Shown here: in pieces, positions 8,186 through 47,660 of the stretch
How positions within the stretch are numbered: the stretch's first letter is position 1
Layout: the number at the start of each line of letters is the position of its first letter
Virus record (IMG/VR): IMGVR_UViG_3300033145_000189
Span: 1-48,479 of that record
DNA: 48,479 nt
DNA from: a virus
Strand: one strand, 5' to 3'
The notes under the pieces: model-generated
What the model saw: the letters and a program-made list of their open reading frames with translations, nothing else
The model's database searches: none
What the model was told of the DNA's origin: nothing
Program-made: the position numbers and the translations under genes

Positions 8186-8201
8186 ATGAAAGGAAGATTC
8201 A

Positions 8202-8699
8202 ATGGCGGAATACGACAATCATAATGCGGATGCTAAAGTGGGTTCGTGGGAGTACGATGAACGTGTAGGGCATCTATGGGAAGCCAGTCATCGTGATGAT
8301 GATTTAGATAATGGCGAAATCATTGATGTAGTTATTCCATGCCCTTCTGAATGGGATGGTAAGGGAATGGAAGTAAAAGTAGAGATAGAAGCAAACGAAG
8401 GATTGAATATTGATATATGGAGAAAAGTAAGAGGGATAACAGGAGGTAACCCGCAAGAGAGTTTCTATAATAAGAATGATAATTATGGTGACTTGGGAAC
8501 TCAATTGAAAATATCTCCTACAATGGTTTTTGGCGGTGATAGGATTCAAAGATTATTTATCGGAGCAGATGATGGTGGAAGCAGAATGGAAGATGTAAGA
8601 ACTGTTGAGGCAGAAAGAGGAATTCGTTATGTGATTACTTCTGTTACTGACGATACAAGGGTGTCAATACGTGTCCAGGTTCGCAGGGCTTACAGATAA
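8202..8699 (+). CDS. Head-region protein of unknown function
   Basis: 165 residues from ATG 8202, with AAAGGAAG upstream. The sequence is acidic and rich in predicted beta strands (EVKVEIEANEGLNIDIWRKV; RYVITSVTDDTRVSIRVQVRRAYR). There is no membrane segment and no cysteine-based motif. Its location between the large terminase and the portal suggests a virion or assembly part, perhaps a small decoration-like protein, but that rests on position alone. No family is recognised. Confidence 0.65.
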   Translation: MAEYDNHNADAKVGSWEYDERVGHLWEASHRDDDLDNGEIIDVVIPCPSEWDGKGMEVKVEIEANEGLNIDIWRKVRGITGGNPQESFYNKNDNYGDLGTQLKISPTMVFGGDRIQRLFIGADDGGSRMEDVRTVEAERGIRYVITSVTDDTRVSIRVQVRRAYR

Positions 8700-8715
8700 T
8701 AAAAGGAACTTACTG

Positions 8716-33233: not shown

Positions 33234-33249
33234 CTGCAATCGATTGCAG
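33234..33249 (+). repeat. 16-bp palindrome, copy 4
   Basis: CTGCAATCGATTGCAG, with its left AA formed by the upstream stop codon TAA (33231-33233). The next gene's ATG is at 33271, and its ribosome site is an all-G run (GGGGGG) between palindrome and ATG. Confidence 0.92.
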
Positions 33250-33270
33250 TTTACTTTGGGGGGATTATAA

Positions 33271-33537
33271 ATGACATTGCCAACGATAAATGGAAATAAC
33301 TTTCCAGAAATATTAATGACTTCTGCATTGACTATGACCAATGGAAAGCCGAATCCAATTCAAGGATTCAATGTTCCAGATAAACCACCTCCAGAATCCG
33401 CTACTGAAAATGCAAAACAAGCGGCAAAAATAGCAGGAAATAATGCTCATAAAAGCGCATTACGGATTCAAGAGAATTTCAGACAGGTAGTCAGAAATGA
33501 AAGTGGCATTGGGAGAATATTTAATTTTATCACCTGA
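33271..33537 (+). CDS. Small protein of unknown function
   Basis: 88 residues from ATG 33271, with a G-only ribosome site (GGGGGGA) instead of the usual AAGGAG. The N-terminal part is Pro/Asn-rich (KPNPIQGFNVPDKPPPES); the rest is an Ala/Lys-rich helix. No motif or membrane segment is visible. It is the first gene after palindrome copy 4 and precedes a methyltransferase-like gene. No family is recognised. Confidence 0.55.
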   Translation: MTLPTINGNNFPEILMTSALTMTNGKPNPIQGFNVPDKPPPESATENAKQAAKIAGNNAHKSALRIQENFRQVVRNESGIGRIFNFIT

Positions 33538-33546
33538 AAGGTTATT

Positions 33547-34224
33547 ATGATTCCATTACACGATGTAACTCTTGAAATGATTCAAGCAATTAAAACAGGT
33601 CACGAATATCTTCTTGAATTCTATCCAGATTATGATTATCGGGTTAAATTAAATCCTTCTATTTTTGAAGGGCGTGAAGATATTACGAATGATACTGGAA
33701 TTAAACAACGGGCTTTTAATATCTGGTGGGCTATTCGTCAATGCTGGATGAAAAGTGATATTGGAATTGAATTTGGTTCCGGTGGCGTGAAAGCTCCATT
33801 TTGTATTTCTACTGATTATTCTGCTGGTTTGGAGTCTGATTACGGTGGTCGGTCTAATGGATGTCATTTTCGTGTTGATTTAGATCGTTTAGACGATGCT
33901 CACGGCATTGGTTTTTGGGAACCATGTATGTTTGCATTAATTTTGGCTAATCATGTTATGGAGCATTTAGAGCGTCCTTACGAAGCATTACAATTTATGG
34001 CAGAAATAACAAAGCAAGATGGAATTATTGCTCTTATAATTCCAGACCACGGAAAATGGGATACGATGATGCACGATAAGACGCATAAACATTGCTGGTC
34101 GGCAGATGAATTCAAAGAGCAATTCTTAAATGAAAACTCACTGAAAGAAATGGGATTAGAATTATTAGAATTCAATACCCTTGATAATAACTTTTCATTT
34201 GATGTAGTTTTAAGGAAGATATAA
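33547..34224 (+). CDS. SAM-dependent methyltransferase-like protein
   Basis: 225 residues from ATG 33547, with AAAGG upstream. IGIEFGSGGVKAP near residue 73 is a class I motif I (SAM-binding loop), and ILANHVMEHLERPYEALQFMAEI near residue 132 is the typical motif IV region of sugar or lipid O-methyltransferases. LIIPDHGKWD follows as the next strand. The protein is close to full length for this class. It most likely methylates a glycan or small-molecule intermediate made by its neighbours; the acceptor is not known. Confidence 0.75.
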   Translation: MIPLHDVTLEMIQAIKTGHEYLLEFYPDYDYRVKLNPSIFEGREDITNDTGIKQRAFNIWWAIRQCWMKSDIGIEFGSGGVKAPFCISTDYSAGLESDYGGRSNGCHFRVDLDRLDDAHGIGFWEPCMFALILANHVMEHLERPYEALQFMAEITKQDGIIALIIPDHGKWDTMMHDKTHKHCWSADEFKEQFLNENSLKEMGLELLEFNTLDNNFSFDVVLRKI

Positions 34225-35208
34225 ATGGGAAAGATACTTTACATCACAGCACCGGAAGCAGATTTTCAATCGTCGTTAATTTATAAAGGATTGTGTAATG
34301 TTCTCGGAGTTGAGAACGTAGTTGATTTCCCATTGAAGAAATCATATCACGGGGAAACAGAACGATATAGTTTGAAACCAATTTACGGGACAGATGAAGA
34401 AGGAGTTACAGCACCTTTTGAATGGTTCATAGCAGAACCATATCATAACTGGACTGTTGATGAAATTGGAAATAATGCAGAAGTTTTTGATTTCGTAATT
34501 CTGGAATCAGTTAGAAAATTAACTGGTGAAGTTTATGAAATGCTTTGTGCTAATTATCCTAAAATAAATTCTCTACCGATGGCTATAATTGATGGCGAAG
34601 ATTACGGTGGTGTTGTTACCGAGTTCAAAGAAAAGAATAATTGCATTGCATATTTCAAACGTGAATTAACTGTACTCGAAAAAAATGTTTATCCATTCCC
34701 GTTTTCTACTCCTGTTCCACAATATTATGGTAGGGACTGGACTGAAAAAAAAGACAATGAAGAATTAAATGGAATGAATGTTCTTTGCTCGTTCAATAAA
34801 ACACATCCACAAAGAGATGTATTCAAAAATGCAATGGATGGTTCATCACATACTTTAATAAGAAAAGGATTGTGTTATGCGGATTACCTCTCTGCATTGA
34901 GTAAGGCACGTATAGCATTATCGGTACGAGGTTGGGGGTGGGATACTTTAAGACGGTGGGAAATAGCATCGTTTAAGACTTTGTTATTTACAGATCAACT
35001 TGGAATTATTGACCCGAATCCATATCGTGATAGAGTTCATTGCGTTTATGTTACTCCTGACGATGTTGTAGAAAAAGGGAGATATTATTTAGACCATCCT
35101 GAAGAAGCGATGACGATTGCCAAAGCAGGACAAGCGCATACCCTTGAATATCATACTCCCGAAAAACGAGTAAAGGATATGTTAAAAATACTGGTCGAGA
35201 AATCTTAA
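34225..35208 (+). CDS. CgeB-like / family 1-type glycosyltransferase
   Basis: 327 residues from ATG 34225, with AAGG upstream and no gap to the previous stop. The first half has KILYITAPEADFQSSLIYKGL. The second half has MNVLCSFNKTHPQR, then LSALSKARIALSVRGWGWDTLRRWEIASFKTLLFTD and finally AGQAHTLEYHTPEKRVKDML. This last pattern is characteristic of the C-terminal nucleotide-sugar-binding half of CgeB-like (Glyco_trans_1_2) enzymes. It is a GT-B type transferase of unknown donor. Confidence 0.7.
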   Translation: MGKILYITAPEADFQSSLIYKGLCNVLGVENVVDFPLKKSYHGETERYSLKPIYGTDEEGVTAPFEWFIAEPYHNWTVDEIGNNAEVFDFVILESVRKLTGEVYEMLCANYPKINSLPMAIIDGEDYGGVVTEFKEKNNCIAYFKRELTVLEKNVYPFPFSTPVPQYYGRDWTEKKDNEELNGMNVLCSFNKTHPQRDVFKNAMDGSSHTLIRKGLCYADYLSALSKARIALSVRGWGWDTLRRWEIASFKTLLFTDQLGIIDPNPYRDRVHCVYVTPDDVVEKGRYYLDHPEEAMTIAKAGQAHTLEYHTPEKRVKDMLKILVEKS

Positions 35209-35221
35209 GGAGAAGAATGGA

Positions 35222-35494
35222 ATGAATACTATTGTAATTACAAAAGAAAAAGATTGTTATCGTGCAACAAGGCCGGAACATTTTTTAACTGGTGAAAAGA
35301 CTCAATACGAATGTAATTCTGCATATCATACTTGTACAGGTAAAACACCAGAAGAAGCAATCGGAAATATGGTAATGTTATGTCCGATAGAGTTTGCAAT
35401 TATAAATATTGCAATAAGCCAAGATGATGAAAACGAAACGTGGAAGATAATTAAAACTGAACGAACAGTTAAAACGCATATCAGAAAAAGATAA
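35222..35494 (+). CDS. Small protein, possibly HicB-like fold
   Basis: 90 residues from ATG 35222 with AAGGAG upstream. The order ITKEKDCYRATRPE, then a Cys-containing loop, then GKTPEEAIGNMVM resembles the start of HicB-like antitoxin domains (strand, CYxA, GxTxEEA helix), but no HicA partner or DNA-binding tail is present. It may be a stand-alone relative. The gene is expressed within the glycan module. The function is unknown. Confidence 0.55.
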   Translation: MNTIVITKEKDCYRATRPEHFLTGEKTQYECNSAYHTCTGKTPEEAIGNMVMLCPIEFAIINIAISQDDENETWKIIKTERTVKTHIRKR

Positions 35495-35505
35495 AGGAAT
35501 TGATT

Positions 35506-35916
35506 ATGGATAAAGAATTTCTAAAACGAGTATCTTTGATTTCAAAAGAAATTTCTAAACGATGCGACAGAGCAAAACAATTAGCTTCAAATTCAAGGAT
35601 AAATAAACATACCGCAGATGCGTATTACTTTTCTCACGCAGAAGTATTGTTACGTGGGATTCTTAAAGCCGTTGACGTATGTAAAAACTTATATGAACTT
35701 GAAGCAGTTATTGATGTAATTGATTCGGTTCAGATAATTTCATTTCCTCATAGATATGAAGTGCGTTCAGCAAATGAAGCACACTATCTTAAACATAAGT
35801 GGAGTAAAGAAACTTCTATTAAAATACTTTTTGAACAACTCACCGAAGGTCATAATTGGGATAAAAATTTTCCAATCAATAATAAGGACGATTCTATTGT
35901 AGATAAAGGAGAATAA
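35506..35916 (+). CDS. Small helical protein of unknown function
   Basis: 136 residues from ATG 35506, with AAAGGA at 35494-35499 (TTG 35500 is too close). The sequence is largely helical and charged (FLKRVSLISKEISKRCDRAKQLA; AHYLKHKWSKETSIKILFEQL), without membrane segments or catalytic motifs. It is followed after two bases by the epimerase gene at 35919 and is probably co-translated with it. No family is recognised. Confidence 0.6.
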   Translation: MDKEFLKRVSLISKEISKRCDRAKQLASNSRINKHTADAYYFSHAEVLLRGILKAVDVCKNLYELEAVIDVIDSVQIISFPHRYEVRSANEAHYLKHKWSKETSIKILFEQLTEGHNWDKNFPINNKDDSIVDKGE

Positions 35917-35918
35917 AA

Positions 35919-36647
35919 ATGAAAATTATGATTATTGGGCATCTTGGAAGACTCGGCTTTCCTTTATTCAAATCATTTTGTGACGCAGGACATGAAGTAT
36001 TCGGAGTAGATAATCGTACAGACCATGATAGTAATGTAGATATACGTGATAGGGAAGCAATAGTAGAACATATCGATTTAATTAAACCTGAAATCGTACT
36101 TCATCTTGCCGCAATACCAGACCCGGTAGGGCGTAAATCAATTGAACAGATGGAACGTATATGGGCAATCAATGTTGAAGGTACTCGTAATGTCATTTAT
36201 GGATGCCTCAAAGCAAAAGTACGTCACTTTGTTTATTATTCTTCTGGTGCAGTTTATGGGTGGGATGATATTCAAAATTGCGGTGAAGAAAAAGGATTCC
36301 TGATAGACCCTTATCCTGTAACTAAACGCACCTGTGAAGATTTAACTCGATGGGCTTCCGGTCCGAAATCAGACCCCGATTGGAATATGAAATGTTCTGT
36401 ACTTCGTTCCGCTCCATATGGTGATTCGGCATTACGTAATTTTTATTATGCTTGTTCGCATCCAGAAGATGTTCTTGAAATTACTGAATTGGCAATCAAT
36501 AATCAAGAAGAACAATATGCTCAATACTTCGTTTGTGCAAAAGAACAAGTAGATGCTTCTGGAAAAACTATCAAACCTATGATGCCGCGTGGACGTGTTA
36601 ATTCTGCATTTGACAGAGTTCCTTGCTATAAAGAATGGATAAATTAA
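35919..36647 (+). CDS. NAD-dependent epimerase/dehydratase (extended SDR)
   Basis: 242 residues from ATG 35919 with AAAGGAGAA upstream. GHLGRLG at residues 7-13 is a GxxGxxG NAD-binding motif, though His8 replaces the usual small residue. LHLAAIPDP at ~61-69, VYYSSGAVYG at ~105-114 and Tyr132-PVT-Lys136 (YxxxK) complete the SDR active site. At 242 residues it is shorter than typical (~310), with a reduced substrate-binding C-terminal part. It would act on a nucleotide-sugar. The next gene, a radical SAM protein, starts at the base after its stop. Confidence 0.82.
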   Translation: MKIMIIGHLGRLGFPLFKSFCDAGHEVFGVDNRTDHDSNVDIRDREAIVEHIDLIKPEIVLHLAAIPDPVGRKSIEQMERIWAINVEGTRNVIYGCLKAKVRHFVYYSSGAVYGWDDIQNCGEEKGFLIDPYPVTKRTCEDLTRWASGPKSDPDWNMKCSVLRSAPYGDSALRNFYYACSHPEDVLEITELAINNQEEQYAQYFVCAKEQVDASGKTIKPMMPRGRVNSAFDRVPCYKEWIN

Positions 36648-37394
36648 GTGACAGTTACATTACCTCCAAGGCATTATTCTGATGAGCATATTTTATCATG
36701 TCTTGAGTTTGAAATAACTCACAGGTGTAATAAGATGTGTACTAAATGTGACCATTTTATTCATTCATCAAAATTTGATTACACGACACTTGATGAATGG
36801 GAATATTTAATGTCATGTATTGATCATCGGGAAAAAATACATAACATATTAATTTCAGGTGGAGAATGTACGCTTCATCCTAACTTTGAAGATATAATAA
36901 GAAGTGTACGCGGCCATTTCCCTGATAGTGGATTAAGGATTTTCACTAACGGTTCAATGCTTGATACTATTAATATCGAGATTCTTGATATGATTGGGGA
37001 GATAATAATAACCGATTATGGTGAATGGAATAAAGATGTTATTGAAAAATATCGTAATCGTGGAAATGTAGCATTAACTGATAGGTCGAGAGGCGATGAA
37101 TCATTTTCAAATCCATTTAGAAAAAATACTTGCTCAGAAGATGCGGCAAAATGGGTTCGGAATAAATGTTTACATCAGGTACGAATAGTCGGCACTAAAT
37201 TATATGGATGTTGTATTTCAGAAGGTGTCGCTCGTTATCATACACAAGAAGATATAGGGATTCTATTTACTAAAAATTGGAGGGAAGATTTTTTTAATCT
37301 ACCTACCTGGAAAGCGTGCCAACATTGTTATCGTGGTTGTGAAGATGTGCATTATCAAAATTGGCTTATTCAAACCGGACAGGAGGATATGTAA
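36648..37394 (+). CDS. Radical SAM protein
   Basis: 248 residues from GTG 36648, directly abutting the epimerase stop. Cys27-xxx-Cys31-xx-Cys34 (CNKMCTKC) is the radical SAM Fe4S4 motif, and ILISGGECTLHP at ~68-77 is the GGE motif that holds SAM. Further Cys residues near the end (CLHQVR, GCCISE, CQHCYRGC) could ligate an auxiliary cluster, SPASM-like. Its place between an epimerase and a methyltransferase suggests radical chemistry on a sugar or other small substrate; that is inference. Confidence 0.82.
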   Translation: MTVTLPPRHYSDEHILSCLEFEITHRCNKMCTKCDHFIHSSKFDYTTLDEWEYLMSCIDHREKIHNILISGGECTLHPNFEDIIRSVRGHFPDSGLRIFTNGSMLDTINIEILDMIGEIIITDYGEWNKDVIEKYRNRGNVALTDRSRGDESFSNPFRKNTCSEDAAKWVRNKCLHQVRIVGTKLYGCCISEGVARYHTQEDIGILFTKNWREDFFNLPTWKACQHCYRGCEDVHYQNWLIQTGQEDM

Positions 37395-38104
37395 TGCCGT
37401 TTACAGATCAAGATATTTTAAGTTTCTTTCGTCGTATTCCTAAAGGAAAAGTAACGCAACGGGATATAGATTACTCAGAAGATGTTTGGACATTACAGCC
37501 ATTACTTTTTTATATGCCGTATTCGATAAGAGCTAAAACACTAATTGAAATTGGCGTTGCTGATGGTTCTACAACTATGCCATTGCTAAAAGCGGCGGCA
37601 GAAAATGGTGGAATTTTACATTCGATAGACCCGTCAGGTTGTGAAGATGCTAAACGTCTTGTTAAGAGTTCTGGATTAGAACAACACTGGCGATTCCATA
37701 ATATGACCAGTGATGAATTTTTTGAAAACTATCGGGAATTAGTAGGTTCAGATAAACTTGAAATTGACTTCGGATTTATTGATGGCGATCATACATGGCA
37801 ATGGGTAGCAAAAGATGTTCGTAATTCATGTTTACGCCTTGCTAAAAATGGAATACTTTTTGTTTCTGATTTTCAATGTTCATTCAATTGGGTTCCAGAA
37901 GCATTGAATCCTGAGATTTACACTACTAATAAAAATACAGAACAAGATGGTTCAAATGGAATTTACAAAGGGCTTCGATTAGTTATGGAGGATTTTCCAC
38001 ATCTATCTACAATACTTCTTGCCGCAAGATGTAACCCTTCAATTTTAATTTCTCGTCCGTATAATTACAAAGGAAAGCCGGAGGAATATTGCAATGAGGA
38101 ATAA
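37394..38104 (+). CDS. Class I SAM methyltransferase (Methyltransf_24-like)
   Basis: 236 residues from ATG 37394 (TAATG overlap, GGAGG upstream). The SAM-binding motif I is LIEIGVADGST at ~50-60; LHSIDPSG at ~75-82 is the acidic motif II; and FGFIDGDHTWQWVAKDV at ~127-143 is the DGDH motif of the Methyltransf_24 family (O-methyltransferases such as cephalosporin hydroxylase-linked enzymes). It overlaps the next gene by 11 bases. The probable substrate is a sugar in the glycan pathway. Confidence 0.8.
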   Translation: MPFTDQDILSFFRRIPKGKVTQRDIDYSEDVWTLQPLLFYMPYSIRAKTLIEIGVADGSTTMPLLKAAAENGGILHSIDPSGCEDAKRLVKSSGLEQHWRFHNMTSDEFFENYRELVGSDKLEIDFGFIDGDHTWQWVAKDVRNSCLRLAKNGILFVSDFQCSFNWVPEALNPEIYTTNKNTEQDGSNGIYKGLRLVMEDFPHLSTILLAARCNPSILISRPYNYKGKPEEYCNEE

Positions 38105-39143
38105 AATATCAGTAGTGATTTCATCTTACAACAGGGCGCATCATTTAATTGATACGCTACCAACTTTAATCTGCCAACCTATTCCTAAAGAGGATTATGA
38201 AATTGTAATAGTTGATGATCGTAGTACGGATAACACTCGTGAAGTTTGTATGTCATTCGCAGACCAATGTAATATTAGATACATTCGACTTGATGAAGAT
38301 ATGCGCGGTCCAATCATTGATCCTGAATTAGCACATCATGTTGAAATAAAAGGTGAATTTGATGGGACGGATTTTGAATATCGTAATTGTTCATATCCGA
38401 AAAATGTAGGTTGGAAGTCTGCTAAACATGATATTATTATGTTTACCGATCCAGAAGTTTTTCATCTTACTGACACGATGATAGATCATTTACATTTACA
38501 GAATGCAACATTATATAATAATCTACAACCTAAATATCGAATGGGCAATATAGCTGGTTATGTCTACGGTAAAAATGACGGTCCGGGCCGACCGATAGAA
38601 AAGGCATTCTATGATGAATTCCTGAAACTCTCTCCTGTAAATGGTATGCGTTCTAAATTTGATACATTGGCATTGTGTAAAAAACACGACCTTCGTTTAA
38701 TCCATGAAGCATATCCATTCTGTATAACTCTTGAGCGTGGAACACTTGAAGATGTCAATGGATGGGATGCTCGATTTATTCATTGGGGAATGGAAGATAA
38801 TGATGCCATGCAACGGCTTGCATGGGCGCATAATTGCGGGGTAAGTTTTGCTGAAATTGATCACGACCTTTCGAAAGAAAGTAAGATGTGGAAACCACGA
38901 TACGTCCACTTATGGCATGATCAAATGAGAATCAATAATCATACATACAATAGACTCCTTTGCGAACGTTGGCTTCATCTGTATGCGCGTATCTGGAATA
39001 ATTGTAAACCACTTTTACCTGATTGTAAAAGATTCTTAAAAGCAAACCATCGCAGGGTACTTACTGTTGAGGAAGAACGTCAACTCACAGAAAATGAAGC
39101 ACGATTTAAGGAGACCGGAGAATGGGAAGAACATACACAATAG
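38094..39143 (+). CDS. Family 2-like glycosyltransferase
   Basis: 349 residues from ATG 38094, with GGAGG upstream. SVVISSYNRAHHLIDTLPTL at ~6-25 and EIVIVDDRSTDNTREV at ~36-51 are the classic GT2 start. IIMFTDPEVFHLTD around residue 117 is the acid site (TDPE rather than DxD). LEDVNGWDARFIHWGMEDNDAMQRLAW near ~215-240 is the ED-containing acceptor region. This is the longest GT2 here. It overlaps the following methyltransferase by 22 bases, so the two are coupled. Confidence 0.83.
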   Translation: MRNKISVVISSYNRAHHLIDTLPTLICQPIPKEDYEIVIVDDRSTDNTREVCMSFADQCNIRYIRLDEDMRGPIIDPELAHHVEIKGEFDGTDFEYRNCSYPKNVGWKSAKHDIIMFTDPEVFHLTDTMIDHLHLQNATLYNNLQPKYRMGNIAGYVYGKNDGPGRPIEKAFYDEFLKLSPVNGMRSKFDTLALCKKHDLRLIHEAYPFCITLERGTLEDVNGWDARFIHWGMEDNDAMQRLAWAHNCGVSFAEIDHDLSKESKMWKPRYVHLWHDQMRINNHTYNRLLCERWLHLYARIWNNCKPLLPDCKRFLKANHRRVLTVEEERQLTENEARFKETGEWEEHTQ

Positions 39144-39883
39144 ATAATTTTGATGTAGAGTTTGAAATATTCTTTGGCAAACCGCAAGAACACTATCATT
39201 CCTTACATCGTTCACAAGAAGGAGCAGGACAGCATCGTGATTTATTTAAGGAAGTTGATTCTTTAACTAATGAGCAGATACGTAATAAATATCTTGATGA
39301 ACGTTGGTATTGCCCGGCGGCAAGCAATCTAAATGCTGAATTCTTTAATGGCCTTGCAGAAACAAAAGCGTACCATGAATCAACTCAATGGTGTTTTGAT
39401 TTATATTCAGAATCATGTCGTGCTCTTGATTACGGTTGTGGCCATTCTTTTGTTGGTTTAATGTTAGCACTTCATGGTTACCAAACTACTCTGGCAGATA
39501 TTCCTTCAAAGTATTTTAAGTTTCTTGAATATATCTGTCCCAAAGTTGGAATCTCTACCGTAGATTTTATTCCAATAAAAACAGAGCGTGACCTGATTGA
39601 TATGTATGACTTCATGGTTTGCGCTGATGTTCTTGAGCACGTTTGGGAACCAGTTGAAGTATTACGTCATTTAATAGAACATCTGAAACCGGGTGGACAT
39701 ATTTGGCTCATGCCATTCTTTGACCACATGGAATCTCCAGAGTTTCCGAATGGTGTAGACCCATCACACCTAAAGAGAAACACTTGGCGTTATCAAGAAG
39801 TTGCAAAATGGGTAAAGATAGTTGATGACTTGGGACTTGAATCACTTGACCCTGGACTAAATCATAAATACAGAAAGAGGTAA
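39122..39883 (+). CDS. SAM-dependent methyltransferase-like protein
   Basis: 253 residues from ATG 39122, with AGGAGA upstream. The core has ALDYGCGHSFVGL at 101-113 (motif I), TLADIPSKYFKFL at ~123-135 (motif II) and FMVCADVLEHVWEPVEVLRHLIEHLKPGG at ~164-192 (motif IV/V), all typical for class I methyltransferases. The first ~90 residues are an additional N-terminal region. It ends in a basic tail. The acceptor is unknown; context suggests a sugar. Confidence 0.8.
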   Translation: MGRTYTIDNFDVEFEIFFGKPQEHYHSLHRSQEGAGQHRDLFKEVDSLTNEQIRNKYLDERWYCPAASNLNAEFFNGLAETKAYHESTQWCFDLYSESCRALDYGCGHSFVGLMLALHGYQTTLADIPSKYFKFLEYICPKVGISTVDFIPIKTERDLIDMYDFMVCADVLEHVWEPVEVLRHLIEHLKPGGHIWLMPFFDHMESPEFPNGVDPSHLKRNTWRYQEVAKWVKIVDDLGLESLDPGLNHKYRKR

Positions 39884-39887
39884 TGAA

Positions 39888-40964
39888 ATGAAAATCGGAT
39901 TTGTTTTTGTTACTTGCCGACCTGAAACAATACTCGACGTGATAACTGCATACGTCGATAATGCGATTCAGTTCAAACAGAAATTTGATATTATTCTTAT
40001 GGAAGATTCTTTAGAAGAACCGCGTGAAAAATTAATCAGAGAAATAAAATATCTTGCTGTAAATAATATGGATACAAAAGCATTTTATTATACTCATGCT
40101 TCTGCAAAAGAAGATTTAGGTGAGGATGCTTATATCTTCCCTCATAAGGCCGGAGCTTGTCGTGGATATGGCCTCTTAAAAGCGTATGAAATGGGTTACG
40201 ATGTAATACTTACCATTGATGATGATGTATGGCCTATTGATGGAGAGAACTTCGTAGGCAAGCATTTAAGAGCGCTTAACGGTAAGGGTGATGGTTGTTG
40301 GTGGAATCCATTTAAGAATATCATCGGACTTGAAAAATATTACTCAAGAGGATTTCCTTATAATGTGCGGGAAAATTCAGAAGTAGTTTTGAATCAGGGA
40401 ATACAACTTCATGGTGCTGATGTTGATTCAATAACACTTCAAGAATGTAATGCGGAATCAGGTATCTTTCCTCATGTTGGAAATTGTACTTATATTCCTC
40501 ATGGTGTGATAATTCCGAATGGAAGTTACACTACGATTGCATATACATCGGTAGCAATAAAAAGGAAAGCCATGCCAGTTTATTATTCTCAACTTATGAA
40601 TACAGAAGTTGATGGAAAAATGATTGGTAGATTCGATGATATATGGAGCGGAGTATTTCTACAAAGAATCGCAAGGCATTTTGATTGTTGTGTTAGTCAT
40701 GCGCCGCCGATGTCTGACCATCGAAAGATACCACGTCCATTACAAAAAGATATTGATGCAGAAGCACCTGGCATTAAACTGAATGAAGATATGTGGAAGA
40801 TTGCAGATGAATGTCAATTTATATCTCGTTCATGGATAGATTGCTATGAAGAATTGGCGCACTTCGTAGCATCTAAAGCGGTATCTTTTGATTATCCTGA
40901 TTACATACGAAAGAACTGCGAAGCTATGTTGGTCTGGTGTAAATTAATAAGAGAAAGGGAATAA
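39888..40964 (+). CDS. GT75-like protein (reversibly glycosylated polypeptide / UDP-arabinose mutase family)
   Basis: 358 residues from ATG 39888, with AGAGG upstream. Asp111-113 (LTIDDDVWP) forms the DxD motif. SRGFPYNVRENSEVVLNQG at ~153-171 matches the RGYPFSLR region of plant RGP/UAM proteins, where the Arg before Gly (here Arg154) is the reversibly glycosylated residue. GSYTTIAYTSVAIKRK and MIGRFDDIWSGVFLQRI at ~246-261 match later conserved blocks. It may interconvert UDP-pyranose and furanose sugars or act as a transferase. It is rare outside plants; the assignment is by motif only. Confidence 0.7.
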   Translation: MKIGFVFVTCRPETILDVITAYVDNAIQFKQKFDIILMEDSLEEPREKLIREIKYLAVNNMDTKAFYYTHASAKEDLGEDAYIFPHKAGACRGYGLLKAYEMGYDVILTIDDDVWPIDGENFVGKHLRALNGKGDGCWWNPFKNIIGLEKYYSRGFPYNVRENSEVVLNQGIQLHGADVDSITLQECNAESGIFPHVGNCTYIPHGVIIPNGSYTTIAYTSVAIKRKAMPVYYSQLMNTEVDGKMIGRFDDIWSGVFLQRIARHFDCCVSHAPPMSDHRKIPRPLQKDIDAEAPGIKLNEDMWKIADECQFISRSWIDCYEELAHFVASKAVSFDYPDYIRKNCEAMLVWCKLIRERE

Positions 40965-40966
40965 TA

Positions 40967-41158
40967 ATGAGTTTATTCTTGGTAGGAATTGCGAGTTTTA
41001 CGTTTGGATTATTCGTTGGTGGTTTTGCTGTTTTATTTCTTTCACTTATAATGTCTGGAAGAAGTAATCGTTATATGAAATATGATACGAATAAAGGTTC
41101 GCAAAGTTTAGCTGTCGAAGAATTACCATCAATTAAAAAAAGACCGGAAGGGAAATAA
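40967..41158 (+). CDS. Small single-span membrane protein
   Basis: 63 residues from ATG 40967, with AAAGGGA upstream. Residues ~3-28 form one transmembrane helix (FLVGIASFTFGLFVGGFAVLFLSLIM), followed by a basic, soluble tail. Such short N-anchored proteins are common in phage genomes (DUF3789-like layout). It sits between the GT75-like and epimerase genes. The function is unknown; it may tether or help the glycan enzymes at the membrane. Confidence 0.6.
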   Translation: MSLFLVGIASFTFGLFVGGFAVLFLSLIMSGRSNRYMKYDTNKGSQSLAVEELPSIKKRPEGK

Positions 41159-41159
41159 T

Positions 41160-42164
41160 ATGAGAATTCTAATAACTGGCGCTGGTGGTTTCATGGGTTC
41201 GCATATTACTGATGCGTTAAAATCTCAAGGTCATATTGTTTACGGTGTTGATGATTTTTCAGGTGGTTATCCAAGAAACGTTTCTGATGAATGGGATTTC
41301 TTTTCCAAGTTTGATATTCGTTCGTTAGAACTATGTAAGATCATTGCTAATGATTTCAGGCCGGAAGTCATTTATCATCTTGCCGCCAATGCAAGAGAGG
41401 GTGCTTCTTTCTTTCAGCCGTATGAAGTTGGTTCAAGAAATTATGGTGCGTATATTCCTATATTGGAATCATGTATCGCTACTGGTTATCTGAAACGAGT
41501 AATTCTTTTTTCAAGTATGGCAGTTTACGGTGATGCGAATCAACCACCTTTTGATGAACGAATGTTACCAACACCGATTGATCCTTACGGCGTAAGTAAA
41601 TTAGCAATGGAAGAAACTACGAAGATGCTTTCTGAATGTCATGGATTTGATTATGTAATTATCAGACCGCATAATGTTTTTGGAAGTCGTCAGAATTTAA
41701 GTGATAAATATAGAAATGTTATTGCGATATTTCTAAATAATATCATGCGTGGAGAACCGATAACGATTTACGGTGACGGAGAACAGGAAAGAGCATTTTC
41801 ACATATTAGCGATTCGTTACCTTGCTATGTAAATGCTTTATATGATGCAACTGGTGAAATAGTTAATATCGGTGGTAAAGAATCTATTACCGTGAATCAA
41901 TTAGCAGATGAAATTATTTCAGCATACCTTGGAAAAGATGCAGAATGGCCTGTTGAACATATCCCTACAAGGCATGGTGAAGCAAAATATGCATATTGCA
42001 CCACAGAGAAATCAGAACGCCTTTTAGGGTACAAAGAAACGGTTGGATGGAAAGATGGTATTAAGCAGATGGTTCAGTATGCGCGGAGTTGTGGAAAGCA
42101 AGAATGGAAATTAGATCATCTTCCGTTATTAAATGATAAAGCACCTGAAACTTGGAAAGTATAA
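41160..42164 (+). CDS. NAD-dependent sugar epimerase/dehydratase (GalE-like SDR)
   Basis: 334 residues from ATG 41160, the usual size for the family. GAGGFMG at 7-13 binds NAD, VYGVDDFSGG at ~27-36 binds the cofactor ribose, YHLAANARE at ~72-80 and LFSSMAVYG at ~116-124 supply the catalytic Ser, and Tyr143-GVS-Lys147 is the YxxxK pair. HNVFGSRQNLSDKYRNV and FSHISDSLPCYV fit the nucleotide-sugar-binding C-terminal part. It probably interconverts a UDP- or dTDP-sugar used by the transferases nearby. Confidence 0.88.
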   Translation: MRILITGAGGFMGSHITDALKSQGHIVYGVDDFSGGYPRNVSDEWDFFSKFDIRSLELCKIIANDFRPEVIYHLAANAREGASFFQPYEVGSRNYGAYIPILESCIATGYLKRVILFSSMAVYGDANQPPFDERMLPTPIDPYGVSKLAMEETTKMLSECHGFDYVIIRPHNVFGSRQNLSDKYRNVIAIFLNNIMRGEPITIYGDGEQERAFSHISDSLPCYVNALYDATGEIVNIGGKESITVNQLADEIISAYLGKDAEWPVEHIPTRHGEAKYAYCTTEKSERLLGYKETVGWKDGIKQMVQYARSCGKQEWKLDHLPLLNDKAPETWKV

Positions 42165-42199
42165 ATCAGTCTGGTTCATATTAATTGGAGGGTAAAGTA

Positions 42200-42805
42200 A
42201 TGAAAAGAATTGGGATTGTAATGGCGATTATTTTTTTAGTATCAATCGCTTCTGGATGTTCTTGGATTGAAAAAAAAATGACCGGGTATGCTACAGAAAT
42301 TGCTGTTGAAAAGGTTCGTGGTCAACTCGATAAAGCGAATGAAAAGATTGACAAGATGATTGATAAACTTCCGACCGAGATTATCGATAAGGCAACCGGG
42401 AAAATAAGCGATAAAATTAATATTGTTATCGCGCGTAATAATGTTGAATTAAAAGCTCAAGGATTAGAAACTCGCGAAATACTTATCAAGAAATATGATA
42501 CAAATAAAGATGGCATCCTTCAAACAAAAGAAATCCTGAAAACTGGTACTGGTGAAATGAAACAAGTTATGGATTATCGTCTTGGTGAAATATCAAAACG
42601 TATTCAAGCAGGAGGGAATCCAAAAGAAGTTCTTGCTGATGAAGGATGGGGTACTACAAAAGATTTTGCTGCAATACTTGCACTCCTTGTATCTCTTACC
42701 GCCACCGAAGTTGTCAGACGTAAACGTGATAGTGAAAAACGAACAGTAATACATAATCGAATTGATAAAGTGGAAACTGCGAATGCGAAAGGCGGTACAG
42801 TATGA
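42200..42805 (+). CDS. Lipoprotein with EF-hand-like loop and C-terminal membrane helix
   Basis: 201 residues from ATG 42200, with GGAGGG upstream. The signal peptide ends in a good lipobox, ASGC, with Cys20. A helical coiled-coil region follows (~25-75). Then DTNKDGILQTKE around residues 100-111 matches the 12-residue EF-hand calcium loop with acids at positions 1, 5 and 12. Near the C-terminus FAAILALLVSLTATEVV could span a membrane, with a basic tail. A protein anchored at both ends could bridge two membranes, but that is inference. It overlaps the next lipoprotein gene. Confidence 0.65.
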   Translation: MKRIGIVMAIIFLVSIASGCSWIEKKMTGYATEIAVEKVRGQLDKANEKIDKMIDKLPTEIIDKATGKISDKINIVIARNNVELKAQGLETREILIKKYDTNKDGILQTKEILKTGTGEMKQVMDYRLGEISKRIQAGGNPKEVLADEGWGTTKDFAAILALLVSLTATEVVRRKRDSEKRTVIHNRIDKVETANAKGGTV

Positions 42806-43104
42806 AAATCTTCTTTGTAATACTAATCATGTTGATGTTGATTTCTGGTTGCTGTGGTTCTGAAAAGAAATTTACAGAAGCCGAAAAAATAACAGCATTG
42901 AATAATTACCGGGCGGCATGGGAATTCAAGACATATAATCCTACAAGTAATTATGCAGAATTTCTTTCACTCGCGGCAGAAGTACATCTAAAAGAAATTG
43001 GAAATCCGAATCCGATTCCATTACCTGTTAACTGGAATAACGCTATCGAACGTGAAGCGGCATTGGATATTGCAAGACAAGCACATCAGGACGCAGGAAA
43101 TTAA
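42802..43104 (+). CDS. Small lipoprotein
   Basis: 100 residues from ATG 42802 (ATGA overlap with the preceding gene). Signal peptide: MKIFFVILIMLMLISGC, with lipobox LISGC and Cys17. The mature part of ~84 residues is helical and soluble (FTEAEKITALNNYRAAWEF ... EREAALDIARQAHQDAGN). The pairing with the larger lipoprotein directly upstream suggests a joint envelope function; an outer-membrane spanin-like role is possible, but no typical Pro-rich segment is seen. Confidence 0.65.
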   Translation: MKIFFVILIMLMLISGCCGSEKKFTEAEKITALNNYRAAWEFKTYNPTSNYAEFLSLAAEVHLKEIGNPNPIPLPVNWNNAIEREAALDIARQAHQDAGN

Positions 43105-43116
43105 AGGAGTTTAATC

Positions 43117-43881
43117 ATTAAGACTGACGCACATTACTTCCTCACCTATCATATTTTTAGGGTGGCCGGATATAAGCCCAACGAAGCAAAGATTATTGCG
43201 GCTTCTTGTGAATTCGTGAATCATTGCACACCATCAGACTGTCCAGAGTTTCGGCTCGGCAAACAACAAAAGATTCCGACTTATACACAAGACCGTTATA
43301 ATAATAATTGCACTACAAGTAAAATTGAAGTGCAGTTACCTTTTCATTACGTACCGGGTTTAGAAAATTCAACTAAATTAAACGTAGTGAAAAATGGGCT
43401 TATTGTAAAAACTCTTCTAAGGCAAGTTCTCGCTATGCCTTTTAATCCGTATTTAATCGGTATAGCATTTCATGCCTTTCAAGATTCATTTACACATAAG
43501 GGGTATTCCGCTTATGTATCCGGCCACTATCCTAAAGAGCGTGACAACGATTTACTTATATTTTCTGAATGTTCTGAAAAAGCTCTAATCAATTTAGGGT
43601 TTGTGAATCTGGAATTGAGACAGAAGATAAAAGAAGTACAGGATAATGGTTTCTTCGATTCCAATGATTCTGAATGTAGGATTGATGCTATCAATCGTCG
43701 GTGGGCAATTAAGGATAAAGGTATTTACCCACCGCAATCAAAATGGTATTCAAACGCACGTAAGAAGAAAAGTTTGAAAAAATATATTCATTCCGATTTC
43801 GCAAAATTTCAGAATGCCGCGCGAGAATATAAATCAATGGTTTGGGAAATGCTTATCTCGCATAATGTAGTGAGGGCATAA
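43117..43881 (+). CDS. DUF6765-like protein with apparent ATT start
   Basis: 254 residues if started at ATT 43117, seven bases after AGGAG (43105-43109). The nearest ordinary start, GTG 43162, lacks a ribosome site and would remove the conserved-looking KTDAHYFLTYHIFRVAGYKP. Residues with His/Asp (TDAHYFLTYH, PFHYVPG, GIAFHAFQDSFTHKGYSAY) resemble the metal-dependent, phospholipase C-like arrangement of DUF6765. Molecular function is unknown. Either a rare start codon is used or the ATG was lost by mutation. Confidence 0.6.
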   Translation: MKTDAHYFLTYHIFRVAGYKPNEAKIIAASCEFVNHCTPSDCPEFRLGKQQKIPTYTQDRYNNNCTTSKIEVQLPFHYVPGLENSTKLNVVKNGLIVKTLLRQVLAMPFNPYLIGIAFHAFQDSFTHKGYSAYVSGHYPKERDNDLLIFSECSEKALINLGFVNLELRQKIKEVQDNGFFDSNDSECRIDAINRRWAIKDKGIYPPQSKWYSNARKKKSLKKYIHSDFAKFQNAAREYKSMVWEMLISHNVVRA

Positions 43882-44876
43882 TGAAAATATTAATTGAAGA
43901 TTATGCATTAAATCATATTGGTGGTGGACAGAAATTTAGTTGTCTTATGGCCGAACATCTATCACAGAAGCATGAAGTATTTTTGACTTCTGGTTCGCGG
44001 ATGGATAAAGGTTATCTTCAAAATTTCTACGGTGTAGATTTATCAAAAGTGAAATTAATTCTTGAAGGTGAATTGACAGGTAATTACGATTTACATATTC
44101 AAGCTGAACATGCTTCATGGTTACCACCGCGCGGAAAGATTTCAATTCTTCTATGTCATATTCCTGCACCGAATAAACCGCTTACTTATATTGATGATTA
44201 TGATTTTATTTTCTGTGCCTCTGAATACGCCAGAAACATCATTAAAAAGCATTGGAATAAAGAATCATATATAACCAGTCTTTATTCATCAGACATCCTT
44301 CCTGCACCCAAAGAACGACAGATACTGACTGTTAATCGTATTACTCATCATAAGTATCTAATGGAGATGATTGAGCAGTTCAGATTAAGGAATTTTGCAT
44401 TGCGTGGATGGAAATTAAAAATCATTGGCGCAACAGGTTGGAATCCGCAATATGATTTACTTCTGAAAAATCAAAGTGATATACCGGGAATATCTTTCTT
44501 ATTTAATATTCCATGGGAATTAGTCGAGCAGGAATATGCTCGTTCTTCAATATACTGGCATTTAGGTGGACTATCAAAAAATGAATTTGAGGGTGAATCA
44601 TGGAGTATGACAACCGCAGAAGCAATGAGTGCAGGATGTTATCCTTTAGTTCCTGCGATCGGTGGGAGTTCAGAAGTCCCGCCGATTGGTTCTTACGCAG
44701 AAGAATATAGGGTTGATGATGCTGAACATCTTGGAATCATTACCGAAAGTATGATTAAGGATAGGATTGATTTCAATACTTATTCTAAATCATGTATTGA
44801 ACACGCGCGAAATTTCAAAAAGAAATTCTGGAATAATCTACAATCATTTTTGAAGCCATTAAATATTGAATTATAA
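43881..44876 (+). CDS. GT-B fold glycosyltransferase (GT4-like)
   Basis: 331 residues from ATG 43881 (TAATG overlap). It starts KILIEDYALNHIGGGQKFSCLMAEHLSQKHEVFL, the standard GT4 N-terminus with a Gly-rich acceptor loop. YDFIFCASEYARNIIKKHW lies in the middle. The C-terminal half has ILTVNRITHHKYLMEMIEQF, FNIPWELVEQEYARSSIYWHLGG and SWSMTTAEAMSAGCYPLVPAIGGSSE, the E-x7-E region that binds nucleotide-sugar. Donor unknown. Palindrome copy 5 overlaps the end of the stop codon's flanking AA. Confidence 0.85.
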   Translation: MKILIEDYALNHIGGGQKFSCLMAEHLSQKHEVFLTSGSRMDKGYLQNFYGVDLSKVKLILEGELTGNYDLHIQAEHASWLPPRGKISILLCHIPAPNKPLTYIDDYDFIFCASEYARNIIKKHWNKESYITSLYSSDILPAPKERQILTVNRITHHKYLMEMIEQFRLRNFALRGWKLKIIGATGWNPQYDLLLKNQSDIPGISFLFNIPWELVEQEYARSSIYWHLGGLSKNEFEGESWSMTTAEAMSAGCYPLVPAIGGSSEVPPIGSYAEEYRVDDAEHLGIITESMIKDRIDFNTYSKSCIEHARNFKKKFWNNLQSFLKPLNIEL

Positions 44877-44892
44877 CTGCAATCGATTGCAG
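44877..44892 (+). repeat. 16-bp palindrome, copy 5
   Basis: CTGCAATCGATTGCAG; its left AA is the end of the upstream TAA (44874-44876). It is followed by GGGG and ATTTTATG, so the ribosome site of the gene at 44902 is a G-only run touching the palindrome. Confidence 0.92.
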
Positions 44893-44901
44893 GGGGATTT
44901 T

Positions 44902-45624
44902 ATGTTTAAGGTAGCAATCATAATAACACATTACGGTGAACAAACTTCATTTCTTGAACGATGTAGGAATATTCGTTTACAGTTACTTGGTTTGTATGAT
45001 TACACTTATTTTATTGAAAGTGATAATACTTACGCAAAGAAGAATCTTTCATTACTTTGGAATGAATTAAGTAAATCTTGCAATACAGAGTGGGTATGTT
45101 TTCTTAATCCCGATGTTTTACTTACTCCTAATTGGTTGAAGTCAATGTTCGACGCAATTCAATCAGATGACAATAAAGATAATATCGCAGTCATTGGGCC
45201 ATCTGCTAATGAAGGTTCTACAAAAATGGATGTTCCGTTCACAGTAGGGATGCCACCTTCATTCGGAGAATTACTTGATCTTGAAACTCATGCCAGAACT
45301 ATTCATGGTGCTGGAGATAGAATTATTCGTGAAAACGCTAAAGTATATGGCCATTGTTACATGGTTCGCAAAAGTATTTTTGATGAACTTGGCGGATTCG
45401 ATACTGACTTCCCTTTATACGGACAGGATACAGATTATAATAACCGAGTGATTGAAAATGGTTATCGTGTTGTTCAAGCAAGGCAATCATACGTTTGGCA
45501 TTGGGGGGGATACACCGGACGAAATGAAATAAAACGAATCAGTATTGATAAGAAAAATGCAGTTGAACTTTGCAAACAAAAACAACTTGAAAGGAAAAGT
45601 AACAATGAAAAAAGAAATAATTAA
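44902..45624 (+). CDS. Family 2-like glycosyltransferase
   Basis: 240 residues from ATG 44902, with GGGGGA just upstream (the in-frame ATG 44866 lies in the previous gene). KVAIIITHYGEQTSFLERCRNI opens the GT-A fold; VCFLNPDVLLTPNWLKSM near residue 74 is the NPDV acid site; GGFDTDFPLYGQDTDYNNRVIENGYRVVQA near ~160-190 is the acceptor-side acidic loop. This matches rhamnosyltransferase-like GT2 enzymes. It overlaps the ParB-like gene by 20 bases. Confidence 0.83.
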   Translation: MFKVAIIITHYGEQTSFLERCRNIRLQLLGLYDYTYFIESDNTYAKKNLSLLWNELSKSCNTEWVCFLNPDVLLTPNWLKSMFDAIQSDDNKDNIAVIGPSANEGSTKMDVPFTVGMPPSFGELLDLETHARTIHGAGDRIIRENAKVYGHCYMVRKSIFDELGGFDTDFPLYGQDTDYNNRVIENGYRVVQARQSYVWHWGGYTGRNEIKRISIDKKNAVELCKQKQLERKSNNEKRNN

Positions 45625-46264
45625 AGATACCAATAAGCCAAGAATAAAAATGTATTCAGTCAAGAAACTAAAACCACATCCTAAGAATCCACGGATACAT
45701 CCTGATTCGATGATTGCTAAACTATGTGAATCAATTAAAACCTTCGGATTCAAAGCTCCAATTATTGCAACTACTGATAATATTATTCTTGCTGGTCATG
45801 GTCGTATAAAAGCGGCAAAGTATCTAAAGATTAAAAAAGTCCCGGTTATGTTTGTAAAAATGTCACCGGAAAAAGCTCTTGCTTATTGTTTGGCAGATAA
45901 CAAGATTTCTGAATTGAGTAAATGGGATGATGCTATGCTTGGTAATGTGTTCAGGGAGTTACATGATAAGTCTTTTGACTTGACGTTAATGGGTTTTGAT
46001 ATAGAGGATTTAAGCATGATGGATATAGATAATTTTGAACGCCCAAAATTAGAAGAACTTTCACAAGAAGAATTAGATCAAATAAAATCTGATTCAAAAT
46101 CTAAGAATAAGAAGAACGGAAATTGGTTGTATGTTGAATATTATACAGATAATGTAAAGTATAGGAAATTAGTTGAAAAATTAATATCTCTAAACATCAT
46201 ACAAAGTAAATCATCGCATGACTTAAATCCTGATATTTTTTACGATATTATTATGGGAGTATAG
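45605..46264 (+). CDS. Stand-alone ParB/Srx-fold protein
   Basis: 219 residues from ATG 45605, with AAAGGAAAAG upstream. KLKPHPKNPRIHPDSMIAKLCESIKTFGFKAPII at ~21-54 and ILAGHGRIKAAKYLKIKKVPVMF at ~61-83 (GHGR) are the ParB-like nuclease/NTPase signature, followed by LADNKISEL. This variant is usually the N-terminal domain of DNA methyltransferases, but here no methylase motifs follow; instead there is a C-terminal ~110-residue region of unknown type. The next gene is a radical SAM enzyme, so the pair may act together, possibly on DNA. Confidence 0.8.
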   Translation: MKKEIIKDTNKPRIKMYSVKKLKPHPKNPRIHPDSMIAKLCESIKTFGFKAPIIATTDNIILAGHGRIKAAKYLKIKKVPVMFVKMSPEKALAYCLADNKISELSKWDDAMLGNVFRELHDKSFDLTLMGFDIEDLSMMDIDNFERPKLEELSQEELDQIKSDSKSKNKKNGNWLYVEYYTDNVKYRKLVEKLISLNIIQSKSSHDLNPDIFYDIIMGV

Positions 46265-46265
46265 T

Positions 46266-47660
46266 ATGAGTTTAAGATATGAATTGAAAGATGTATGTGG
46301 AAGTTGCGGGAAGTGTGACGGTTCTATTTGTGAGCCAGTACGCAAACCATTACGTAAATATAATGGGATACGATTAACAAGTGATGGTTTCGACTGTGCT
46401 TTACCTGTAACTATTGATAGCCATTCCGTATGTTCGTACAGTTGTTTGTATTGTTTTTCAGATAATATAATGTCGCATAGGGAAGGTAAGTCAAATCCAA
46501 TTGGGCAAACATCATTACGTTCTATTGAAAATATATTTTCTGGAAAAGAAGGTAAATATGCAGACCAGATACGCTATGCTTTGAAATACCACAAACTGAA
46601 TTCAGGTGGTTATCCATGCCCTGTTCAGGTTGGTGGGCTTACAGACCCTTGCGATGACATTGAACGCAATCAGGGTTGGTTGTTGAAATTGATCAAACTT
46701 GCAATTAAATATAAACAACCATTGCGTCTATCGACGAAGGGTAATTTATTCTGTGATAAAGAATATTTAGATGCTGTATCCGAACATCCTGAATTGTTTT
46801 GGGTAGCATTTTCAATTATATCTATTGATGATTCTATTATGAAAAAGGTTGATAGGCGCGCACCTTTGCCTTCGGAACGATTGGAAACATTAAGACGCCT
46901 ATCAGAACGTGGCGTTAAAACCAGTTTAAGGTTCCGGCCATTAATTCCTGGCATTTCTGATAGAACAAAGAAACACCCTAAAGCATATAAAGAACTTATT
47001 GAAAAAGCGGCTGAATATGGTGCAAACGCTATTAGTTATGAGTGCGCATTTGCACCCGGTATAGCACCGAAAGCCATGCAACTTAATTGGAAAATCATTG
47101 AGCAATTATCTGGATATCCACTGTACAATATTTATAAATCATTTGGTCCACGTCAAGCGTGTATGAGGCCAGCTTATACTTGGACAGAGCATATTATGCA
47201 CGCAGTTAAAGAGGTTGCTGTTAATAATGGTTTGAGTGTAGGCGTTAGTGATCCGGCGTGGAAGCAACTTTCTGATACAGGATGCTGTTGTGGTATATTA
47301 CCTGACGACCCTGTTTTTGGTAATTGGGAAGAAGAAAATGCAACCAATGCAATGGTTAAAGCAATGAAAACAGGGAAACTTATTACATTTGAAGATATAT
47401 GTCCACCGTGGGCATATAAGATACGAGCAGATAAATTAGTTGCCTATGGTGCTGGTCCAACTAATCAATATGAACGTAGGCATACTACATGGTCTGATAA
47501 ATTAAAATCGATTTGGAATGATGTTACTAAAGAACGTGGGCCGATGAGTTATTTCCAAGGTGCATTAAAGCCGGAAGGCATTGATGCGAATGGGAATATG
47601 CGTTATCGATATCTTGGTCTAACCAGAAAGAATAAAAAAAGCTGGTGCTGGAATGTTTAA
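46266..47660 (+). CDS. Radical SAM protein, spore photoproduct lyase-like
   Basis: 464 residues from ATG 46266, one base after the ParB-like stop. Near the N-terminus CGSCGKCDGSIC (~11-22) may hold an extra cluster. Cys56-xxx-Cys60-xx-Cys63 (CSYSCLYC) is the radical SAM motif. VGGLTDPCDDIE, LRLSTKG and RRLSERGVKTSLRFRPLIPGISD follow the layout of SplB/Rv2578c-like enzymes. SDTGCCCGILPDDP near residue 350 offers more cysteines. A role in nucleic-acid repair or modification is suggested by this similarity and the ParB-like neighbour. Confidence 0.8.
   Translation: MSLRYELKDVCGSCGKCDGSICEPVRKPLRKYNGIRLTSDGFDCALPVTIDSHSVCSYSCLYCFSDNIMSHREGKSNPIGQTSLRSIENIFSGKEGKYADQIRYALKYHKLNSGGYPCPVQVGGLTDPCDDIERNQGWLLKLIKLAIKYKQPLRLSTKGNLFCDKEYLDAVSEHPELFWVAFSIISIDDSIMKKVDRRAPLPSERLETLRRLSERGVKTSLRFRPLIPGISDRTKKHPKAYKELIEKAAEYGANAISYECAFAPGIAPKAMQLNWKIIEQLSGYPLYNIYKSFGPRQACMRPAYTWTEHIMHAVKEVAVNNGLSVGVSDPAWKQLSDTGCCCGILPDDPVFGNWEEENATNAMVKAMKTGKLITFEDICPPWAYKIRADKLVAYGAGPTNQYERRHTTWSDKLKSIWNDVTKERGPMSYFQGALKPEGIDANGNMRYRYLGLTRKNKKSWCWNV

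Follow-up and report, generated by a model that had tools for sequence, protein, structure and literature searches.

A divergent GT75 protein, a candidate NDP-pyranose mutase, in the sugar module of a tailed phage, and the association of MtdL-type GT75 genes with GDP-mannose-3,5-epimerase in aquatic phages

Introduction

The closest described systems are MtdL of Marinactinospora, a GDP-L-galactose/L-fucose pyranose-furanose mutase (7xps, 7yua), and the UAM/RGP proteins of plants, represented by rice UAM2 (8cid). According to the accessible part of PMC9937993, from which all statements below on MtdL variants and plant paralogues are taken, MtdL D109N, D195N, R159K, R257K and D260N yielded no detectable product, S86D lost GDP binding, and Q229A, D87N and D87S lost activity. 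Active RGPs carry, against guanine, an Asp at the position of MtdL S86. Some plant GT75 paralogues are inactive; AtRGP5, one without activity, lacks equivalents of R257 and H287, and rice UAM2 is reported to be inactive as well (PMC9937993).

Phage-encoded GT75 and GT2 are reported from soil (accessible part of PMC12016548, 2025, citing Xu et al. 2024, PNAS), and one BFVD/UniProt entry is named "Reversibly glycosylated polypeptide (Fragment) [uncultured Caudovirales phage]". For cyanophage S-SCSM1, a GDP-mannose-3,5-epimerase is already in print (accessible part of PMC9602691); a search of its main text for "furanose" and "mutase" gave nothing. Titles and abstract openings, for the most part of papers outside subscription journals, described no phage furanose pathway. 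A preliminary description of the gene considered here, made from the sequence alone, had pointed to a phage copy of GT75. A phage GT75 it is, though not the first, given 38 other IMG/VR loci, the UniProt phage entry and the 2025 paper; the gene is a divergent member of a family already known in phages.

Results and Discussion

A full-length GT75 gene in a tailed-phage record

The window, that is, the whole stretch of DNA analysed, corresponds to a linear contig from IMG/VR, 48,479 bases long. It is a tailed-phage record, with genes for a portal (E 1.8e-95), a tape measure (E 1.6e-37) and a major head protein (E 4.3e-17). The terminase match in it was weak (E 4.6e-5), and a genome-wide search with the same terminase family gave no match in the window. 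The gene under study has the extent already assigned to it in the preliminary description:

39888–40964 (+): GT75/RGP-family NDP-pyranose mutase candidate (Pfam, PDB search, structure model)

The ORF starts with ATG, is preceded at a distance of ~7 nt by GAGG, which resembles a ribosome-binding site, and encodes 358 amino acids without an internal stop; its GC content is 36.5%, compared with 37.8% for the window.

The ORF encodes a full-length, divergent GT75 (Pfam RGP) protein. It matched Pfam RGP (PF03214) with 60.3 bits (E 2.3e-16), the curated cut-off being 23.8 bits; PHROGs and NCBIfam contained no family for it. Five distinct PDB sequences scored below E 0.001. Four are versions of MtdL, with E between 1.6e-20 and 4.1e-20, and the fifth is rice UAM2 (E 6.6e-9); the bit scores were 76.7 for MtdL versus 38.4 for UAM2. 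The predicted structure, built with 49 sequences (pLDDT 90.3, pTM 0.90), contains the GT75 fold, consisting of GT-A core, unique core and C-terminal helices, over residues 1–358. The best seven PDB chains retrieved with it by Foldseek were six of MtdL and that of rice UAM2 (E 1.7e-22 to 2.4e-17), rank 8 following at E 1.1e-6. VIA-align gave Z 36.5 for MtdL (321 residues) and Z 33.6 for UAM2 (319 residues), the next fold being GlfT2 (GT2) at Z 16.9. The GT75/RGP assignment of the preliminary description is borne out by the Pfam score and the structural ranking alike: the fold search, which it had proposed as a check, returned MtdL and UAM2 rather than an unrelated GT-A family, with R154 on the GT75 arginine.

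Catalytic residues are kept, substrate contacts are not

Residue counts refer to 65 relatives, comprising all 38 IMG/VR loci, 24 GTDB loci (293 loci matched in GTDB, 80 were kept, and 24 of these were aligned), two genes from plasmids, and LR756511; one of the 65, L041, carries an intein. The catalytic positions are as follows:

40218–40226 (+): DDD motif, residues 111–113 (MtdL D109–D111; metal and nucleotide), identical in 65/65 relatives
40347–40349 (+): R154 (MtdL R159; the glycosylated arginine of plant RGP/UAM), Arg in 65/65 relatives
40419–40421 (+): D178 (MtdL D195), Asp in 65/65 relatives
40629–40640 (+): R248...D251 in GRFDDIWSG (MtdL R257 and the proposed general base D260), both identical in 65/65 relatives
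40719–40721 (+): H278 (MtdL H287, a Mn2+ ligand), His in 63/65 relatives

In the alignment, D111, D112, D113, R154, D178, R248 and D251 correspond to MtdL D109, D110, D111, R159, D195, R257 and D260, respectively. Arg154 had been named in the preliminary description as the RGP arginine, and the DDD, RGFP and RFDD motifs as retained; both statements agree with the alignment, in which RGFP begins at R154 and RFDD at R248. Rice UAM2 has no equivalents of R257 and H287 in the same alignment.

Two further sites are those at which MtdL contacts its substrate:

40149–40154 (+): A88-G89, at the MtdL S86-D87 site of base and sugar choice (roles from the accessible part of PMC9937993); neither the GDP nor the UDP pattern
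40542–40550 (+): Y219-T220-S221, at the sugar/phosphate loop, replacing C-[GS]-M-N of most relatives or S-Q-N of the MtdL type (alignment)

A88 stands at the position of MtdL S86, where 61 of the 65 relatives have S, T, D or N; the Asp of active RGPs is not present there. G89 takes the position of D87. Y219 and T220 occupy those of S228 (G or S in 60/65 relatives) and Q229 (Met in 63/65), and the corresponding contacts of MtdL are not kept. V8 replaces a Pro found in 59/65 relatives; as the N-terminal residues of MtdL lie outside the aligned stretch, we infer from the P-T-[IC]-R context that V8 is the equivalent of MtdL T13. In view of the effects of S86D, Q229A, D87N and D87S in MtdL, these changes bear on donor choice, and the departures at T220, Y219 and G89 make altered or lost activity possible. 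The contact positions conform to neither of the two known patterns, that of plants (UDP) and that of MtdL (GDP), and they indicate no single donor.

Compared with the described systems, the protein has the fold, DDD, R159, D195, R257, D260 and H287 in common with MtdL but is only 22% identical to it, has A, G, Y and T at S86, D87, S228 and Q229, and lies outside the MtdL clade. With rice UAM2 it shares the fold, the Arg and the RGFP/RGYP block, again at 22% identity, but lacks a C-G-M-N-like loop. The GT75 proteins of the uncultured phage LR756511.1 and the 38 IMG/VR loci are likewise phage-borne and have the same catalytic set; they are at most 31% identical, however, and most have P-T-I-R, W173 and C-[GS]-M-N, none of which is found in the query. 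MtdL-type GT75 of aquatic phages (e.g., gp110 of Synechococcus phage S-T4) is also phage-borne, with the Arg and Asp set and a sugar module, but forms a clade of its own, carries Ile at D87 (81/82) and Gln at H287 (82/82), and usually has a GDP-mannose-3,5-epimerase gene nearby.

A lone lineage in the family tree

A pattern scan of IMG/VR that used only the query sequence found no relatives; a five-sequence profile scan found the 38 other loci with GT75. No relative in IMG/VR and among GTDB representatives exceeded 31% identity, which was also the best value, and the branch of the query is 1.7 changes per site long. A quick tree, in which rice UAM2 formed a very long branch and from which L041, L024, L038 and L044 were omitted, placed the query in a set of 17 rows together with archaeal proteins, MtdL and two viral proteins resembling MtdL (support 99). 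The same grouping was obtained at 100/99 in a careful tree; from this tree and from the AU tests, UAM, L036, L031 and L042 were omitted as well. The AU test rejected no placement tried (archaeal set, p 0.58; plant-like/bacterial/phage rest, p 0.52), and with only three MtdL-type rows in the tree the query joined the MtdL set provisionally, at 90/20. With 21 MtdL-type rows in a quick tree, the MtdL clade closed without the query (SH-aLRT 100). In the enlarged quick tree, built without UAM from 18 of the 80 MtdL-type loci described below plus 40 of the 66 proteins used before, the query among them, support was 100 for the MtdL type, 98 for the plant-like/bacterial/phage rest, and 86 for the archaeal proteins with L010 and L013; the query stood alone near this last group (support 40). 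On these trees, the query is read as a lone, separate and apparently deep GT75 lineage.

The sugar module

The GT75 gene is part of a co-directional sugar module of ~16 kb (29434–45624), downstream of the tail genes. Besides GT75, it contains six glycosyltransferase ORFs (31456, 32334, 34225, 38094, 43881 and 44902; family E 0.01 or better), three methyltransferase-like genes, two SDR epimerase-like genes and one radical SAM gene; ORFs 29434 and 30159 are glycosyltransferase-like by eye, without a Pfam match.

31456–32334 (+): GT2 glycosyltransferase
32334–33233 (+): GT2 glycosyltransferase
34225–35208 (+): GT-B type glycosyltransferase (Glyco_trans_1_2)
35919–36647 (+): second, short SDR epimerase/dehydratase, 242 aa
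38094–39143 (+): GT2/galactosyltransferase-type glycosyltransferase
39122–39883 (+): SAM methyltransferase, next to GT75 on the upstream side
41160–42164 (+): GalE-like extended SDR epimerase (Pfam Epimerase E 6e-47; PDB 4zrm E 8e-44)
43881–44876 (+): GT4-type glycosyltransferase
44902–45624 (+): GT2 glycosyltransferase

The GalE-like gene, ~200 bp downstream of GT75 with one ORF of 63 aa in between, is the nearest sugar-nucleotide gene. Its best PDB match was the UDP-glucose 4-epimerase 4zrm, followed more weakly by UDP-GlcA decarboxylases (best 4.7e-30) and GDP-mannose 3,5-epimerase (9.1e-22); as it scored 109 bits against NCBIfam GalE, the cut-off being 262, its own substrate is a guess. 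By its position, the epimerase likely supplies the pyranose substrate of GT75. A DUF6765 protein (43162–43881, E 1.5e-22) is also encoded inside the module, and a ParB-like protein, followed by a PA0069-type radical SAM protein, at 45602–47660.

Proposed activity and donor

To judge from its family, fold, aligned catalytic residues and gene context, the gene probably encodes an active furanose mutase of the metal-dependent, flavin-free NDP-pyranose/furanose type. As proposed for MtdL, D251 would activate R154 for attack on C1 of the NDP-pyranose, giving a transient adduct between Arg and sugar; the sugar ring would then open and reclose through O4, and the NDP-furanose would leave. DDD and H278 would hold the metal. 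The NDP-furanose would very likely be used by the phage's own glycosyltransferases of the 29.4–45.6 kb module, for a glycan that might be carried by the virion, the host surface or DNA.

Because the nearest sugar-nucleotide gene is GalE-like, UDP-galactopyranose made by that enzyme is a slightly favoured substrate, and UDP-galactofuranose the corresponding product, although this is guilt by association; UDP-Gal is proposed tentatively, by judgement and not by computation. What this judgement leaves after UDP-Gal, arabinose and GDP-sugars goes to other donors or to inactivity. The flavin-dependent UDP-galactopyranose mutase Glf has an FAD fold unrelated to GT75, and its product is the one that GT75 would form from UDP-Gal; no match to Glf was found among the module proteins scanned. 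A more speculative proposal, which we consider rather doubtful, is that the protein represents a fourth deep GT75 lineage with a donor specificity of its own. Together with the GalE-like enzyme it would then lead from UDP-glucose to UDP-galactofuranose in two steps and without flavin, and this would be one among several phage furanose pathways independent of each other; the combination of GDP-mannose-3,5-epimerase with MtdL-type GT75 in aquatic phages would be another.

The preliminary description had suggested a furanose sugar such as arabinofuranose, which would correspond to a plant-like UDP-L-arabinopyranose mutase forming UDP-arabinofuranose. The family is indeed the same (Pfam RGP), rice UAM2 is a structural match (Z 33.6), and Y219, a bulky residue of the sugar pocket, could favour a pentose. 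The suggestion of arabinofuranose is nevertheless not supported. The best sequence and structure match is the bacterial GDP-L-galactose/L-fucose mutase MtdL (76.7 bits) and not the plant enzyme (38.4 bits), although the latter, reported to be inactive (PMC9937993, accessible part), is a poor yardstick. The contact positions follow neither group, the protein has neither the C-G-M-N loop seen in most relatives that are not of the MtdL type nor the active-RGP Asp, the nearest sugar-nucleotide gene is GalE-like, and no UDP-xylose synthase scored above cut-off among the module proteins scanned; arabinose is considered an unlikely donor.

A GDP-sugar mutase like MtdL/Hyg20, converting GDP-L-fucose or GDP-L-galactose to the furanose, would agree with MtdL being the best PDB match and with A88, which is small and not the guanine-blocking Asp of MtdL S86D (PMC9937993, accessible part). 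Yet the query lies outside the MtdL-type clade (100 SH-aLRT), lacks the S-Q-N loop and apparently has V8 for T13, judging from its neighbours; the window contains no GDP-mannose dehydratase (gmd) that scores above cut-off, and the SDR downstream resembles GalE and not GDP-mannose-3,5-epimerase. A GDP-sugar donor is considered improbable. Still less probable is a catalytically dead or self-glycosylating GT75 serving as scaffold or sugar carrier, like some plant paralogues: the substrate loop is divergent and inactive plant paralogues exist, but the catalytic and metal residues are kept, including the equivalents of R257 and H287 that are absent from inactive AtRGP5 (PMC9937993, accessible part). 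A GT-A glycosyltransferase merely resembling GT75 and glycosylating another acceptor is very improbable, since, despite the GT-A core and GT2 enzymes such as GlfT2 as next structural neighbours, the match covers residues 1–358 including the C-terminal helices, its Z is twice that of any GT2, and the sequence scores above the GT75 cut-off.

GT75 loci of other viruses and plasmids

In other phages, too, GT75 genes lie with glycosyltransferases and sugar-nucleotide enzymes, according to a survey of 81 of 149 listed neighbours (the automatic choice of the GT75 ORF was wrong for L009, L014, L030 and L040, none of them among the 81). A search for gmd in 31 records gave some match in six and none over the cut-off; on the sequence covered, most of these phages would need other sources of NDP-sugars. 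A GDP-L-fucose-synthase-like gene lies near a non-MtdL-type GT75 in L012 (5371–6366, −; 307.7 bits, cut-off 500), a case at odds with a simple rule by which GDP-sugar genes would go only with MtdL-type GT75.

DNA hypermodification was considered as a target of the glycan and rejected, a TET-associated glycosyltransferase being present in one of 40 viral GT75 records, and not in the window; a TET/JBP search was negative in all 40, but its control matched nowhere, so that this absence carries no weight. In L044 (~6116–9461), three TET-associated-glycosyltransferase genes flank GT75, a possible link to DNA base glycosylation. The viral GT75 of L041 (5675–7660, +) is interrupted at the conserved C-G-M-N active-site loop by an intein in which Pfam identifies a LAGLIDADG domain (E 1.2e-11 and 2.5e-9). 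L019 (7755–8780, +), a protein of a viral contig, resembles plant UAM (RGP 199 bits; E 8.8e-31 to rice UAM2 vs 6e-19 to MtdL), and its gene adjoins one resembling uracil-DNA glycosylase. DUF3431 genes occur near GT75 in L016, L025 and L027, and one adjoins GT75 on the planctomycete plasmid NZ_CP011275.1 (L004); B12-binding radical SAM genes flank GT75 in others, e.g., L021 and L043.

MtdL-type GT75 usually lies with a GDP-mannose-3,5-epimerase-like gene

Two IMG/VR loci, L040 and L043, encode MtdL-like proteins (L040 vs MtdL, E 3.7e-39). Each also carries a gene resembling GDP-mannose-3,5-epimerase: in L040 it directly follows GT75 and matches the solved enzyme with E 8.6e-89, and in L043 it lies ~1.5 kb downstream (E 2.7e-88). 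The product of this epimerase, GDP-L-galactose, is the natural substrate of MtdL (accessible parts of PMC9937993 and PMC9602691). When IMG/VR was scanned with the two proteins, 239 loci matched MtdL-type GT75; 80 of them, among these both seed contigs, were retained. The epimerase-like gene was present in 64/80 of these, compared with 0/36 other viral IMG/VR GT75 loci scored with the same script; because many locus stretches are short, the 16 misses are no proof of absence. An ORF was counted when it scored more than 150 bits to the GDP-mannose-3,5-epimerase references and exceeded other SDR references by 50 bits or more; the smallest margin observed was 222 bits. In 21 of the 64 loci the epimerase lay within 120 bp of GT75, and counted by GT75 cluster it was present in 45/53, 29/35 and 7/11 at 95, 80 and 60% identity, respectively.

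Among annotated phages, MtdL-type GT75 was present in three Synechococcus phages, represented by four records, and in one uncultured phage with two records. In S-T4 (gp110; L205) and Sf-CH8 (Sf-CH8_159; L206), the GT75 is deposited as "hypothetical protein" and the epimerase as "nucleotide-sugar epimerase" or "NAD-dependent dehydratase". As their modules also contain annotated heptose kinase/adenyltransferase, phosphoheptose isomerase and cytidyltransferase genes, GDP-heptose is a possible alternative substrate there. In all 82 aligned phage MtdL-type proteins R159, D260 and Q229 are kept; their mutase activity is still putative, because Gln replaces the metal ligand His287 in 82/82 and Ile replaces D87 in 81/82. 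The gene association suggests a putative phage pathway to GDP-L-galactofuranose (or heptofuranose), and it is a stronger result than the donor assignment for the protein of the window.

Many GT75 genes of phages, at least some of which were deposited as hypothetical proteins (S-T4 gp110, Sf-CH8_159), are found alongside an enzyme that makes MtdL's natural substrate, and the role of phage GT75 becomes directly testable in cultured cyanophages. If the protein encoded in the window is active, the phage would make its own furanose donor and would not depend on its host for it, and part of the structure of its glycan would become predictable and testable.
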